Positions 18,728 to 24,246 of a stretch of DNA of 35,435 nt are shown one piece after another. Source of the stretch: Myxococcales bacterium (GTDB lineage Bacteria > Myxococcota_A > UBA9160 > SMWR01); assembly GCA_013215605.1 (NCBI GenBank), contig JABSQW010000004.1, positions 1 to 35,435 of the forward strand, given 5' to 3'. The position numbers and the translations under genes are program-made. Below the pieces are notes generated by a model. The model worked only from the letters and a program-made list of their open reading frames with translations, ran no database searches and had not been told where the DNA came from. Numbering within the stretch: the first letter of the stretch is position 1; each line of letters begins with the position of its first letter.

Positions 18728-19933
18728 TCAAGCGGTAAACGCGCTCTTCTCCGGCCCGACGGCCGCCGCGATCGACACGAGCTTCTCGCTGTCGAAACCG
18801 TAGAACTCGACCGCGTTGCCGCCGAGGATCGCCGCGATCTCGTCCTCGGGGACGCCGACGAAGGAATCCGCGAGTCGCGCCGCCGTGTTGGGCCAGGTGC
18901 CTTCGGGATGCGGGTAGTCGCTCCCCCACATCAGGCTCGCCACGCCGATCTGGTGGCGCATCATGACCTCCGGCCGTGGGATCGACGCCCCGACCCGGAT
19001 GTTGCGCGCGAAGTACTCGCTCGGCTTCATCGACAGGTGGCTCGTGTAGTCGCCGAGCTTCGAGCTGCCCGGGTGACTCGATGCGCGTTGGTCGAGGAGC
19101 TGCAGGAAGGAGGGGACCCACTGGGCCGTGCCTTCGGTGATTGCCACCCGCAGCTCGGGGTGCTCTTCGAAGATTCCGCCCCAGATCAGGAACGTGAGCG
19201 GGCGGGCCACCCACCAGCAGACCTCCGAGACGTAGATCCCCATCGCGCCGCGCAGCGTGGGCTCGCCGGGATTCGGTGGCCACGCTCCGAAGTACTGCTC
19301 CGAGTCCGCGGGGCCGGAGTGGAAGTGGACGACCGTCTCCAGGTCCTGGCAGGTGGCCCAGAGCGGGTCGTAACAGGGGTGGTGGTAGGGGGCGTGGTCG
19401 CCCCAGATCACGGGGATCATGATCGAGCGGAGCCCGTTCTCGCGCGCCCAGCGCACCTCGCGGATCGCCTCGTCGATGTCCCATGTCGCGGGGACGATGG
19501 CGACGCCCGCGCGGCGTTCCGGCGCCATCTGGCAGAACTCGGCGAGCCAGCGGTTGTGAGCGCGTGCGCCGGCCCACTGCAGCTCGCGATCGGCGCCCTT
19601 GGGGCTGAGTCCGATTCCCGCGCCGAAGGGCGGCGCGTTCATCTCGGTGATGCCGTCGGGGAAGATCACCTCTCCGGCGATGCCGTCGCCGTCGAGCACC
19701 TTGATGCGCTCGCCGTGATCCCACGCCCCGGTGAGCGCGGCTTCGTTCCCCGTGCGCCACTGCGCATTGATGTCGCCGACGAGGAAGTGCTTTTCCAGCT
19801 CGCGGGTGCGTTCGACCTGGATCTTCATGGCCGCGTCGAAGGCGTCGCGGTACTGCGGGTCGAGATACTCGCGGTAGCCGCCCGGCGGCAGTCCGGCGTG
19901 ACAATCGGACGAGATGACGAGATGGCGATCCAT
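18728..19933 (-). CDS. Amidohydrolase family 2 (TIM-barrel metal hydrolase), paralogue A
   Basis: A 401-residue protein of the amidohydrolase_2 group (ACMSD/gamma-resorcylate decarboxylase-like). Candidate metal/catalytic residues are D10 and H12 in ISSDCHAG, H203/H205 in VVHFHSG and D339 in MWGSDYPHPEGTWP. The usual first ligand pair HxH is DxH here, so the metal site is modified. The start at 19933 is backed by GAGGAGAAG just upstream and by the matching N-terminus of paralogue B; a longer frame upstream is a shadow of the neighbouring gene. It is second in an operon, 23 nt after paralogue B. Reactions in this family include decarboxylation and hydrolysis of ring-derived acids; substrate unknown. 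Confidence 0.9.
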   Translation of the reverse strand: MDRHLVISSDCHAGLPPGGYREYLDPQYRDAFDAAMKIQVERTRELEKHFLVGDINAQWRTGNEAALTGAWDHGERIKVLDGDGIAGEVIFPDGITEMNAPPFGAGIGLSPKGADRELQWAGARAHNRWLAEFCQMAPERRAGVAIVPATWDIDEAIREVRWARENGLRSIMIPVIWGDHAPYHHPCYDPLWATCQDLETVVHFHSGPADSEQYFGAWPPNPGEPTLRGAMGIYVSEVCWWVARPLTFLIWGGIFEEHPELRVAITEGTAQWVPSFLQLLDQRASSHPGSSKLGDYTSHLSMKPSEYFARNIRVGASIPRPEVMMRHQIGVASLMWGSDYPHPEGTWPNTAARLADSFVGVPEDEIAAILGGNAVEFYGFDSEKLVSIAAAVGPEKSAFTA

Positions 19934-19956: not shown

Positions 19957-21138
19957 TCAGTCGATTCCCAGGCTGCTTCGCTCCGGACCGAACTCGGCGG
20001 CCAGCGGCAGGAGCTTGTCGAGATCGAACCCGTAGACCGAAGCGGCCGTGCCGCCGACTATTTTTTCGACCTCGTTCCGCGGCACGTTCTTGAAGGCGTC
20101 GTTCAGCTTCTCCGCGGTGTGGGGCCACGTGCCTTCCATGTGCGGGTAGTCGGAGCCCCACATCAGCTTGTCGACGCCGATCTCGTGGCGCGCCACCGTG
20201 GCGTCGTCGCCCATGAAGGCCGCGCCGATGAAGCCGTTGCGCCGGAAGTACTCGCTCGGCTTCAGCGGGAGCTTGCGTCGAAGGTGGCGGAACATCGGCA
20301 TCTCGTACGTCCGGTCGAGCTGCTCGAGAGCATCGGGGATCCACGTGGCGCCCTGCTCGGTCATCACGAAACGTAGCTTCGGGTGGCGTTCGAAGGCGCC
20401 CGACCACGCGAGGAAGTGGAATGGGCGGTGCGCGAACCAGCCGATCTCGTAGAGGAAGATGCCCAGGGAGCCGTCGAAGTTCCCGTAGTTGGGCGTCCAC
20501 CCGGAGTGGGTGTGGATCGGCATCGCGAGGTCTTCGCACACGGCCCAGAGGGGCTCGTAGCGTGGGTGGTTGTAGAACGGCTGTCCGTTCGTGTCGCCCG
20601 GCAGGATGATCCCGCCGCTGACGTCGTGCTCGCGCAGCCACTTCACTTCGGCGACGGTGACGTCGATGTCGTCGACGGTGATGAGGCCGACGCCGCCGCG
20701 CTGGCCCTTCGCCTCGGCGCAGAAATCCGCGAGCCAGCGGTTGTACGCGCGACAGCCCTCGAGCCAGAGTGCTGCGTCCTGCTCGTACTGATAGGTCATG
20801 AGACCGGCGCCGAAAGGACCGACGGTCTGCATGCTGCCGCCGGGGAAGATCACTTCGGCGACCACGCCATCGCCCTTCATCTCTTCGAGGCGTCGCTTCG
20901 AGTCCCACGCGCCGTCCATGCCACCCCCGGCGACCGCCGACTCGACGTCGAAGTCGCCCATCGCCTCGTCGCCGTAGATCGCCTCGCCGGTGTGGTCCGC
21001 GCGGCGGGCGTTCTTGGCGTCCACGTCGGCGATCCAGGCGTCGAACCGGTCGACGAACTTCGAGTCGACGTAGCTGCGCGCGACGTCGGGTAGGGGGCCC
21101 GCGTGGCAGTCGGCGGAGATGAGGAGATAGCGGTCCAT
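19957..21138 (-). CDS. Amidohydrolase family 2 (TIM-barrel metal hydrolase), paralogue B
   Basis: A 393-residue paralogue of the downstream gene, sharing the whole architecture: MDRYLLISADCHAG at the start, RRLEEMKGDGVVAEVIFPGG, YNRWLADFCAEAKGQR, PIHTHSGW, LPLKPSEYFRRNGF, LMWGSDYPHMEGTWPHT and a C-terminal VYGFDLDKLLPLA. D10/H12, the HTH pair and the Asp of GSDYPH are the likely metal and catalytic residues, again with DxH replacing HxH. The ATG at 21138 has AGGAGT upstream and aligns with the paralogue start, so the longer reading to 21189 is not used. The two may form a heteromer or act on successive substrates. It is divergent from the triple-SnoaL gene, with 161 bp between. Confidence 0.9.
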   Translation of the reverse strand: MDRYLLISADCHAGPLPDVARSYVDSKFVDRFDAWIADVDAKNARRADHTGEAIYGDEAMGDFDVESAVAGGGMDGAWDSKRRLEEMKGDGVVAEVIFPGGSMQTVGPFGAGLMTYQYEQDAALWLEGCRAYNRWLADFCAEAKGQRGGVGLITVDDIDVTVAEVKWLREHDVSGGIILPGDTNGQPFYNHPRYEPLWAVCEDLAMPIHTHSGWTPNYGNFDGSLGIFLYEIGWFAHRPFHFLAWSGAFERHPKLRFVMTEQGATWIPDALEQLDRTYEMPMFRHLRRKLPLKPSEYFRRNGFIGAAFMGDDATVARHEIGVDKLMWGSDYPHMEGTWPHTAEKLNDAFKNVPRNEVEKIVGGTAASVYGFDLDKLLPLAAEFGPERSSLGID

Positions 21139-21299
21139 GGGGTGACTCCTGGAGATTGCACCGGTCGTTGCGGTGGTAGATCGCGTCATTCTGACACGGC
21201 GCGGTGGCGAGCGGGAGTCTCGCCCGGGCGATCCGACGCGCTGCCGCCCGGGCCGCCGTGATAGCTTGCGAGGGCCGCCCTCTTCGCGGTGGAGCCCTC

Positions 21300-22847
21300 A
21301 TGAACTCGCGTCTGGCCCGGCTCGGCGATCAGCAAGCCATCCGAGACGTGCTGGCCCGCTACTGGCGCGGCATCGACCGCGGAGACGCCGATCTCGTTCG
21401 CAGCACCTACCACCCCGACGCCAGGGACGACCACGGCTATGTCAAGGGATCGCTGGACGGGTTCATCGAAACGCTCGAGCCCGGCGTCTGGTCGATCTTC
21501 GACCGCACCCAGCACTTCAGCGGCCACATCGCGGTGGAGCTCAGCGGACCCGACACCGCCCACGCCGAGTCCTACGCCGAGGCTCACCACGTTCGCCAGT
21601 CGGGCGACGGGGGCGACGGGGGCGACGGGCCTGGCAGCGACCTCGTCTTCGGGCTGCGCTACGTCGACCGCTTCGAAAGGCGCGACGACGAGTGGCGGAT
21701 TGCAGACCGCGTTTGCACCTGGGACTGGCACCGGGTCGACGAGGGTCTCGGGATGCCGCTGCCCGATTCGTACTTCCGCGGGTCGCGGGACGCGAGCGAT
21801 CCGGTATTCGGACACCCGCGACGGGTCGGTGTTCGGGTGGCTGCTCGCGACCTCGTGGCCAAGCGCGCCTGCTACGACGCCCTCATGCGCTACGCGCGCG
21901 GCGTCGATCGCTGCGACCCCGAGCTCGTCCGCTCCGGCTATCACCCCGGCGCCTTCGATGACCACGGCGGCTACCAGGGAGACGTCGACGGCTTCATTCC
22001 GTGGGTGAAGGAGATCGTGATGGACGCCTACACGTGCACCATGCACAAGATGGGCAATGTCCTGATCGAGGTCGACGGAGACCAGGCGTACGGCGAGACC
22101 TACGCGATCGCCCACCACGTCGACGCTCGCGCCGCCGAGCCCACCGATCTGATCATGGGCGTGCGCTACCTCGATCGCTTCGAGTGCCGGGGCGGCGACT
22201 GGCGCGTCGTCCACCGCGTCATGAGCTACGAGTGGGAGCGCGTGGCGACGATCGGCGCCCAGAGCTTCGACGCTTCGTACGCGGTGGGGCGCCGAGACGG
22301 CAGCGACACTGCTCTGCAGCCGCCGCGCAACGCGCGACCCACGACCGCGGTGGTGCCGGACGATCTCGAAGCCACCCGGGACCGCGCCGCGATCTACGAC
22401 CAGCTCGTCGCGTACTGTCGGGCGGTGGATCGCTGCGACGAGGCGCTCCTGCGCTCCGTCTACCACCCCGATGCTCACGACGATCACGGCGCCTACCAGG
22501 GCGACCTCGAAGGCTTCGTCGAGTTCGTGAAGACCGAGGTGCAGGCGCGTTTCCGCTCCACCATGCACAAGCTCGGGAACTCGTTCATCGAGCTCGACGG
22601 CGACGTCGCGCACTGCGAGACGCTCGCAATCGGCCACCATGTCCGCGCCGAGGACGGCGTCGACGTCGACGACCTCGTCCTTGGCATTCGCTACCTCGAT
22701 CGCTTCGAGCGGCGACACGGCGAGTGGCGCATCGCCAACCGCCAGCTCGTCTTCGAGTGGCAGCGCCTCGACCGGCTCTCGCCCCTCGACGAAACCTGGA
22801 CCCCTGGTCGCCACGACCCGAGCGACCCCGTCTACGCGCTGCGCTGA
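21300..22847 (+). CDS. Protein of three tandem SnoaL-like (NTF2-fold) domains
   Basis: A 515-residue protein starting at the ATG at 21300 with GGAG at 21291-21294. It is a triplication of one unit of about 165 residues (about 6-171, 184-340, 362-515). Each unit has a Tyr-Arg-Asp start ([YC]xRGxDRxD), an RSxYHPxAxDDHG block (34-46, 211-223, 385-397), an HH pair (H96/97, H272/273, H446/447), a RYxDRFExR strand and a closing GRxDxSDP-like tail; units 2 and 3 also share MHKxGN. This is the SnoaL_4-type cone fold seen in dehydratases, isomerases and some dioxygenase small subunits. Single domains normally act as oligomers; a covalent trimer is unusual. It is convergent with the P450 gene. Confidence 0.88.
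   Translation: MNSRLARLGDQQAIRDVLARYWRGIDRGDADLVRSTYHPDARDDHGYVKGSLDGFIETLEPGVWSIFDRTQHFSGHIAVELSGPDTAHAESYAEAHHVRQSGDGGDGGDGPGSDLVFGLRYVDRFERRDDEWRIADRVCTWDWHRVDEGLGMPLPDSYFRGSRDASDPVFGHPRRVGVRVAARDLVAKRACYDALMRYARGVDRCDPELVRSGYHPGAFDDHGGYQGDVDGFIPWVKEIVMDAYTCTMHKMGNVLIEVDGDQAYGETYAIAHHVDARAAEPTDLIMGVRYLDRFECRGGDWRVVHRVMSYEWERVATIGAQSFDASYAVGRRDGSDTALQPPRNARPTTAVVPDDLEATRDRAAIYDQLVAYCRAVDRCDEALLRSVYHPDAHDDHGAYQGDLEGFVEFVKTEVQARFRSTMHKLGNSFIELDGDVAHCETLAIGHHVRAEDGVDVDDLVLGIRYLDRFERRHGEWRIANRQLVFEWQRLDRLSPLDETWTPGRHDPSDPVYALR
21602..21628 (+). repeat. Three perfect 9-bp tandem repeats (GGGCGACGG)
   Basis: Three head-to-tail copies of GGGCGACGG lie inside domain 1 of the triple-SnoaL gene and encode a Gly-Asp-rich loop (GDGGDGGDG, residues 102-110). 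The loop is absent from domains 2 and 3. The 9-bp period keeps the frame, so copy number can vary without disrupting the protein. Confidence 0.75.
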
Positions 22848-22860
22848 TCGCGAGAGAACT

Positions 22861-24042
22861 TCAGCTGAAGCGCACGGGCACTTTCGAGTAGCCCTGCACG
22901 AACTCCGTCGCGTAGCGCTCGAGACCCGAGCGATCGACCTCGTAGGTCGGGAAGTGCTTCAAGAGCTCGTTGATCGCGACCTCGCCCTCCTTGCGTGCCA
23001 CGTGCAGCCCGATGCAGGCGTGTGCGCCGTGGCTGAATCCCAGCGAGCGCGGCGGCTTGCGGTGCATATCGAAGGCGTCGGGGCGGTCGAACTCGCGCGC
23101 GTCCCGATTCGCGGACGCGTACAGGAGCAGCACCGGCTGTCCCTCGCACATGTCCCGACCGGCGAAGTGGATGTCGCGCGAGAGTGACCGCGCCATCTGC
23201 TGAGTGGGCATGTCGAGGCGGACCGCCTCGTTGAACGCGGCGACGGCATGCTCGGGATGGGCGGCGAGCTCGGCGCGCTGATCCGGGTTCTCCTCGAGGC
23301 GGATCAAGAGATTGGCGAGGACCTTCGGCAGCGTGTCGGTGCCGCCCACGAGGAGGAGCGACAGGTGCGACGCCACCTCGGCGTCGGAGAGCTTGCGGCC
23401 CCGCGAATCCTCCCACGCGTGCAGCACCGAGATCGAATCTTCCGAGTCCGCCGGCCGGTCGCGGCGAGCCTCCGAGATCTTCGCGAGGTAGTCGTTCATC
23501 TCCATCATGGCGGCGAGCCCGCTCTCGCTGAGGCCGGGGTTGCCCTCCTCGCGCAGAAAGAAGCGACCGACGAGGTCGCGCATGTAGCTCGAGTCTTCCG
23601 GCGGCAGGCCGATCACCGTGGCGCCCACGAAGGTGGCGAGCGGCTGCGCGAAGGCGTCGACGAAGTCGTGGACGTCGCCGTCGGCGAACGGCAGGGAGAG
23701 CTCGCGGACGCTGCGCTCGATCAGCGGCGTGAGCTCGCGAATCCGTCGCGGTGAGAAGAACGCGCGGATCCGGCCGCGGAGCTTCGAGTGGTCGGGCGGA
23801 TCCATGCTGTTGAGCATCGCGGTGACGGGCTGGACCTTCGTGAGCAGGTGCGAGAGCGTCGTGCCCTTCGCGACGGAGAAGGCGTCGTGTTGGCAGGCCT
23901 CCCACACGGCGTCGAAGCGCGAGAGCGCCCAGCAGTTCCACTTCTCGCTGTAGTAGACGGGCGCCTCTTCGCGGAGCTTCGCGTAGAGGGCGTACTTGTC
24001 GCCGTAGACGAGCTCGTCGGAAAACGGATCGTATTCGACCAT
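22861..24042 (-). CDS. Cytochrome P450
   Basis: A 393-residue soluble bacterial P450. The I-helix oxygen-activation segment is LVGGTDTLPK (231-240), the ExxR pair is E272/R275 in NEAVRLDMP, and the haem loop is FSHGAHACIG with the proximal Cys343. The ATG at 24042 is chosen because GGAGGGG lies a few nt upstream; an in-frame ATG at 24084 adds 14 residues with no good ribosome site, and a TAGACT (-10-like) lies between the two. Class I P450s need a ferredoxin and reductase, which are not in the window. The stop is 13 nt from that of the convergent triple-SnoaL gene. Substrate unknown; a terpenoid, steroid or fatty acid is plausible from context. Confidence 0.94.
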   Translation of the reverse strand: MVEYDPFSDELVYGDKYALYAKLREEAPVYYSEKWNCWALSRFDAVWEACQHDAFSVAKGTTLSHLLTKVQPVTAMLNSMDPPDHSKLRGRIRAFFSPRRIRELTPLIERSVRELSLPFADGDVHDFVDAFAQPLATFVGATVIGLPPEDSSYMRDLVGRFFLREEGNPGLSESGLAAMMEMNDYLAKISEARRDRPADSEDSISVLHAWEDSRGRKLSDAEVASHLSLLLVGGTDTLPKVLANLLIRLEENPDQRAELAAHPEHAVAAFNEAVRLDMPTQQMARSLSRDIHFAGRDMCEGQPVLLLYASANRDAREFDRPDAFDMHRKPPRSLGFSHGAHACIGLHVARKEGEVAINELLKHFPTYEVDRSGLERYATEFVQGYSKVPVRFS

Positions 24043-24246
24043 CGACCCCTCCGGCTGAAAAGGCGGCTGGAGTCTATCACCCATGCCGACGAGCTCGGGG
24101 GCGCGCGTCAGCGGAACGAAGGCGATTCGAAACCGGCTCCGCGCAGGGTCTCCGCGAGCGTCGCCGTGTAGTCGACGAGCGTCGACACCACGATCGATCC
24201 CAGCAAGCGCCAGTCCCAGCTCGCCTGGCAGGCATCGCTGGCGGAC

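Follow-up and report, generated by a model that had tools for sequence, protein, structure and literature searches.

The 35,435-nucleotide stretch of a Myxococcales genome analyzed here (contig JABSQW010000004.1, hereafter the window) encodes a protein with three tandem SnoaL_4 units that may well be a single-chain pseudo-trimer, consisting of three barrels of the LinA, BaiE and scytalone dehydratase type, each with its own Asp-His dyad; the probability given to this reading is roughly 0.6. In the proposed origin, one SnoaL_4 gene would have been duplicated in tandem and its barrels fused head to tail; what had been the C-terminal tail of a monomer would now link it to the following barrel, and the packing would correspond to a LinA or BaiE trimer made covalent. 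Each site may perform cofactor-free general acid-base chemistry (as a dehydratase, an isomerase or an enzyme of another elimination), with ring compounds from nearby oxidases as substrates, and the three sites could conceivably have diverged in specificity. If true, single-chain trimers would have evolved naturally and repeatedly among enzymes that are otherwise known as non-covalent homotrimers, and two questions would become open to test: what leads a homotrimeric enzyme to be joined into one chain, and whether its symmetric sites diverge afterwards. The point of interest is the repeated triple fusion within a group whose solved members are trimeric; tandem NTF2-like barrels are known from other families, and the novelty is thereby limited.

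Three SnoaL_4 units in one open reading frame

The presence of three SnoaL_4 units in one real open reading frame is confirmed. The frame begins with an ATG at position 21300, ends with a stop codon at 22847 and contains no internal stops (Table 1). The three tandem units reported in a preliminary description of the window are each significant when scanned alone against PF13577 (SnoaL_4), with scores of 77.1, 67.1 and 75.1 bits for units 1, 2 and 3 (E 1.5e-21, 1.9e-18 and 6.2e-21), far above the curated cut-off of 24 bits. The motifs named in that description are present in every unit, namely the RSxYHPxAxDDHG block (RSTYHPDARDDHG, RSGYHPGAFDDHG and RSVYHPDAHDDHG in units 1, 2 and 3), the HH pair (AHHV, AHHV and GHHV), the RYxDRFE strand (RYVDRFE, RYLDRFE and RYLDRFE) and the GRxDxSDP-like tail (GSRDASDP, GRRDGSDT and GRHDPSDP), and MHKxGN is limited, as described, to units 2 and 3 (MHKMGN and MHKLGN). 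The repetition itself stands, and the repeat length, given earlier as approximately 165 residues, is slightly larger, successive units being spaced by 177 residues (D26 to D203) and 174 residues (D203 to D377). Pairwise identities between the units are 38% (1-2), 41% (1-3) and 45% (2-3); units 2 and 3, already noted as the closest pair, are sisters in the tree (support 97/89, and 92/39 in a larger tree). Judged from these sequences, the three units share common descent.

Table 1. Features of the three-unit gene and its neighbors (window coordinates)
Feature	Position	Strand	Basis or remark
Three-unit SnoaL_4 CDS	21300..22847	+	515 aa plus stop; orthologs known
GGAG, possible ribosome-binding site	21291..21294	+	read from sequence; six bases upstream of ATG
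Unit 1 barrel, residues 1-148	21300..21743	+	PF13577 E 1.5e-21; AF2 secondary structure
D26, aligned to catalytic Asp25 of LinA	21375..21377	+	alignment
H72, aligned to catalytic His73 of LinA	21513..21515	+	alignment
Linker 1, residues 149-181 (GSRDASDP)	21744..21842	+	corresponds to C-terminal tail of single-unit homologues (alignment); pLDDT about 70-80
Unit 2 barrel, residues 182-317	21843..22250	+	PF13577 E 1.9e-18; AF2 secondary structure
D203, LinA Asp25 position	21906..21908	+	alignment
H249, LinA His73 position	22044..22046	+	alignment
Linker 2, residues 318-355, retained tail (GRRDGSDT)	22251..22364	+	alignment; pLDDT 44-71 over most
Unit 3 barrel, residues 356-492	22365..22775	+	PF13577 E 6.2e-21; AF2 secondary structure
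D377, LinA Asp25 position	22428..22430	+	alignment
H423, LinA His73 position	22566..22568	+	alignment
C-terminal tail, residues 493-515 (GRHDPSDP)	22776..22844	+	sequence and alignment
Amidohydro_2 protein, divergent from three-unit gene	19957..21138	-	PF04909 E 6e-30; start taken at MDRYLLIS methionine
Second Amidohydro_2 protein	18728..19870	-	PF04909 E 1e-23; frame as scanned
Cytochrome P450, convergent, 13 bp from three-unit gene	22861..24084	-	PF00067 E 8e-21

No NCBIfam family scores above its own cut-off for the three-unit protein, and membership in SgcJ/EcaC (TIGR02246) was rejected (13.9 bits for the whole chain and 18.6 for unit 1, versus a cut-off of 33.95). The nearest solved protein by sequence for the whole chain is LinA, a weak match (best E 0.001). 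Searched against solved proteins, a profile built from 23 units finds Rv3472, Saro_3538 and LinA (E 2e-9 to 3e-6), and the two best of these, Rv3472 (2chc, E 2e-9) and Saro_3538 (3b8l, E 3e-8), have a single barrel per chain. The bile acid 7-alpha-dehydratase BaiE (4leh, 4n3v, 4l8o, 4l8p) and scytalone dehydratase (1idp, 3std, 4std) share the fold, also with a single barrel per chain, and neither has a sequence match to the unit profile at E <= 0.001.

Predicted fold and domain arrangement

The preliminary description regarded NTF2/SnoaL enzymes as usually working as non-covalent oligomers, and this holds for solved members of the fold group, LinA and BaiE both being homotrimers (PMC3507683, PMC13101464). 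LinA has the catalytic dyad H73/D25, a K26-D93' bridge between subunits that is also kept in scytalone dehydratase, and a C-terminal tail that extends to the neighboring subunit (PMC3507683); BaiE and the related steroid dehydratase SteC are SnoaL-like trimeric dehydratases (PMC13101464). One barrel of the AlphaFold2 model matches LinA with a Foldseek TMt of 0.76-0.82, BaiE with 0.72-0.75 and scytalone dehydratase with 0.71-0.77, so the alpha+beta barrel fold of this group is present in the model (TMt 0.71-0.82 overall). Helices and strands of unit 1 (e.g., helix 2-27, strand 69-83 and strand 131-148) follow those of LinA (alpha1 3-26, beta3 68-82 and beta6 123-138; PMC3507683) in order and nearly in number. 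The window protein therefore shares with LinA (gamma-hexachlorocyclohexane dehydrochlorinase; 3a76, 3s5c, 5kvb) the barrel fold, the order of secondary structure, the Asp-His dyad and the K26-D93' pair in the form of R and E, whereas LinA has one barrel per chain and forms a non-covalent trimer; the trimeric group of LinA, BaiE and scytalone dehydratase as a whole has one barrel per polypeptide, and the window protein has three.

For the whole window chain, AlphaFold2 gives a mean pLDDT of 84.4 and a pTM of 0.89, and for a separately evolved three-unit protein from the same genome (the C78 type, described below) 86.3 and 0.89, both from input alignments of only 9-10 rows. Since each barrel makes up approximately one third of the chain, a pTM close to 0.9 implies confidence in how the barrels are placed relative to one another; a much lower score would be expected had the predictor been unable to place them. 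A fixed arrangement of the three domains is thus predicted, and the pTM leaves open which arrangement this would be. Of the earlier suggestion that a fused chain may fix a trimer geometry, the fixed domain arrangement is supported at the level of prediction, in two separately evolved types. In alignments, both linkers coincide with the tails found in single-unit homologues, and at the LinA K26 and D93 positions every unit of the eight window-type chains has R and E, respectively. Taken together, linkers that appear to be retained tails, a LinA tail that reaches its neighbor, the R-E pair and the pTM are consistent with a covalent version of the known trimer. Against the pseudo-trimer, the LinA inter-subunit bridge D19-R79' is not kept in window-type units, and the R-E pair also occurs in 42 of 83 single-unit proteins and is therefore a family trait. 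In the orthologs, unit 1 has E at the LinA R10 position and unit 3 mostly lacks Asp at D15, a pattern that fits unit 3 meeting unit 1 in a ring; as a sign of such a ring the R10-D15' loss was set aside, since it amounts to one change on the tree and since, in one genome, the C78 type has a K26-D93' pair pointing to the opposite ring direction.

A rather unlikely alternative is that the barrels are beads on a string with flexible linkers, or that the chains pair in another way, as in the dimeric three-domain iota-carbonic anhydrase, so that fusion raises local concentration or fixes stoichiometry with no closed trimer. Confidence in the model is lowest at the two linkers (pLDDT 44-81), and the iota-carbonic anhydrase Bn86287 (7c5x, 7c5y), which belongs to another NTF2-like family (COG4337) and is a precedent for three tandem barrels per chain, is a dimer in solution (PMC8132391) and provides the top Foldseek match by E-value (7c5y, 3.7e-9). 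However, whole-chain superposition on iota-carbonic anhydrase is poor (TMq 0.16-0.18, with 0.16 for 7c5y; rmsd 33 A), and its barrel arrangement was rejected for the window model; the pTM of 0.89 in two separate types and the trimeric state of the next solved relatives also argue against such assemblies. Amongst the polyether epoxide hydrolases Lsd19 and MonB (3rga, 4rzm, 9kw6), Lsd19 shows that two NTF2-like barrels can be fused in one chain, and its arrangement was likewise rejected, the matched Lsd19 chains containing two barrels and superposing with an rmsd of 15-18 A over the whole. No paper on tandem SnoaL proteins of a comparable kind was found in the open-access literature.

Active sites and pockets

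The positions of the LinA Asp25-His73 dyad are filled in each unit (D26/H72, D203/H249 and D377/H423 by alignment), and none of these six residues varies across ten aligned three-unit chains from three types, in agreement with the earlier statement that all three putative active sites are kept. Beyond the dyad, the LinA pocket is mostly not kept: K20 is replaced by Y, W42 has no counterpart, and L21, I109, A111 and A131 differ. The three units resemble one another and differ from LinA in having Y at 20, T at 71 and Y at 113 (LinA numbering), and share with LinA the R at 129; these four residues are invariant in all eight window-type orthologs. Other pocket residues are unit-specific (in units 1/2/3, W/A/C at 21, A/A/C at 96, L/V/I at 111 and C/M/L at 131), and these four differences are fixed in at least seven of the eight orthologs. 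Such fixed differences are not enriched in the pocket (by hand count, 4 of 13 conserved columns there versus 15 of 45 in the rest of the protein), so the idea of three specialized sites, raised in the preliminary description, is permitted by the differences between units and not demonstrated by them.

A bolder proposal, which is tentative and somewhat doubtful, holds that the trimeric SnoaL_4 barrel became covalent on several independent occasions owing to the freedom that fusion gives each site of a trimer to specialize; the window protein would then be a single-chain heterotrimer of fixed order, with three Asp-His sites acting on different substrates or on successive steps.

The SnoaL/NTF2 fold serves both binding and catalysis, and the protein might accordingly be a binding or carrier protein with three NTF2-like pockets holding a hydrophobic ligand rather than an enzyme. 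The changes from the LinA pocket noted above (K20 to Y and the missing W42 in particular) suit this improbable reading, but the invariance of the dyad Asp and His in every unit of ten chains, and of T71, R129, Y20 and Y113 in all eight window-type orthologs, argues against it. On the evidence of fold and dyad, the likeliest activity of the pseudo-trimer is probably that of a cofactor-free dehydratase or isomerase.

The neighboring genes provide a loose guide. The window gene lies beside two Amidohydro_2 genes (divergent) and one cytochrome P450 gene (convergent). In g38, a genus containing most of the orthologs, a luciferase-like (F420/LLM-type) oxidoreductase gene follows the three-unit gene on the same strand at all six loci with downstream sequence (L096, L097, L098, L099, L101 and L102), and in most loci the three-unit gene is preceded by genes including alternative complex III components. 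Genes of the C78 type occur near amidohydrolase, short-chain dehydrogenase and aminotransferase genes, and a further type from Novosphingobium lies beside a P450 and short-chain dehydrogenases. Such neighborhoods hint at oxidative ring-compound metabolism, by analogy with BaiE and SteC, and at no particular pathway. There is no conserved neighborhood to guide a functional assignment, since the neighbors of the window gene and of its orthologs differ, which counts against the pseudo-trimer.

Distribution and origins of three-unit chains

The window-type gene was found in 9 of 91 genomes of the class (the window genome, seven of genus g38, and G083), with no further cases in 379 genomes drawn from the phylum. 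Intact orthologs, 57-62% identical to the window protein, are present in seven of nine genomes of g38, which represents another family of the order. In G083, from a third family, the gene lies in two overlapping frames and is broken between units 1 and 2 (L020:908-2448), which may reflect a pseudogene, an error in sequencing or a genuine split. In a tree of 93 units, units 1, 2 and 3 form separate groups across genomes (support 100/99, 100/98 and 99/98), which indicates that the chain was already triple before spreading. The window-type units form one clade (support 86/84) within which units 2 and 3 are sisters, suggesting that the chain arose by one duplication and then a second. The preliminary description would have lost its point had most close homologues been three-domain proteins of assigned function; the closest homologues are indeed three-domain proteins, and in the sources searched an assigned function was found for none. 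Its word "unusual" does not hold in the sense of isolated, as the three-unit architecture recurs in several SnoaL_4 lineages.

The window genome itself contains a second, distinct three-unit protein of 433 aa (contig C78) with relatives in G042, G081 and G072, and a metagenome-assembled genome (MAG) of Novosphingobium (L042) contains a third type of 529 aa. The units of each type group together in the tree, and a single clade for all three types is rejected (AU test, p-AU 0.0023), so triple fusion arose on two or more occasions, or on three if every group is accepted as it stands. These separate types offer ready-made replicates, the window type keeping three dyads and the C78 type having a third site that has decayed in two genomes: the dyad His of unit 3 is lost in G042, and much of the barrel is missing in G072 (L093:910-2778 and L095:562-1947). 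This decay counts against the pseudo-trimer, and it favors a reading in which the tandem duplication was near-neutral and extra units were kept for dosage, with no structural or chemical meaning; so does the expansion of SnoaL_4 in the class (up to 60 domains per genome), where duplications are frequent. Near-neutrality is nevertheless very improbable for the window type, whose units form the separate ortholog groups described above, show no decay in eight intact chains and are all under purifying selection, dN being well below dS wherever the dS of an ortholog pair is unsaturated. An assembly or annotation artefact joining separate genes, to which the fragmented draft source genome (713 contigs) and the two frames of G083 might have pointed, is refuted by seven other draft genomes, in which the chain is likewise uninterrupted (57-62% identity).

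Unit counts were compared in four genomes of the class (G000, G066, G077 and G087) by grouping SnoaL_4 domains by contig, strand and frame (by script for G000 and by eye for the other three). The 190 domains comprise 178 single-unit and 4 three-unit frames, and the Pfam scan found no two-unit frame amongst them. In three sphingomonad-type MAGs, 121 SnoaL_4 domains include 3 three-unit and 2 two-unit frames; the genomes were picked because they contain relatives, and the predominance of three over two should be read as a lead rather than a rate. The two-unit chains of the sphingomonad MAGs count against the pseudo-trimer, as three is not the sole number. SnoaL_4 genes cannot safely be assumed to encode one barrel each. 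In the plasmid tblastn search, listed places of approximately 0.4-0.6 kb represent one unit matched by three query units, and the printed coverage is misleading.

Several further SnoaL_4 arrangements were observed. The family is strongly expanded in the class: the window genome has 42 domains, G066 has 46 and G077 has 60. In a MAG of the genus Novosphingobium (L050), two three-unit ORFs (715 and 716 aa, 47-48% identical, apparently exported) lie next to each other (L116:1595-3739 and L116:3708-5855, - strand); the Pfam scan finds three SnoaL_4 matches in each, and their third units score poorly against the unit profile. Alphaproteobacterial MAGs contain dense arrays of SnoaL_4-like ORFs, with up to approximately 10 domains per 10 kb (L049:826-10998, L050:2083-6546 and L054:527-10997), and two-unit ORFs lie inside such arrays (L049:3152-4600 and L050:3034-4602). 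At L109:1378-3177 (- strand), a two-unit SnoaL_4 ORF is followed by one TAA and then, in frame, by a single-unit ORF, an arrangement that resembles a fusion intermediate.
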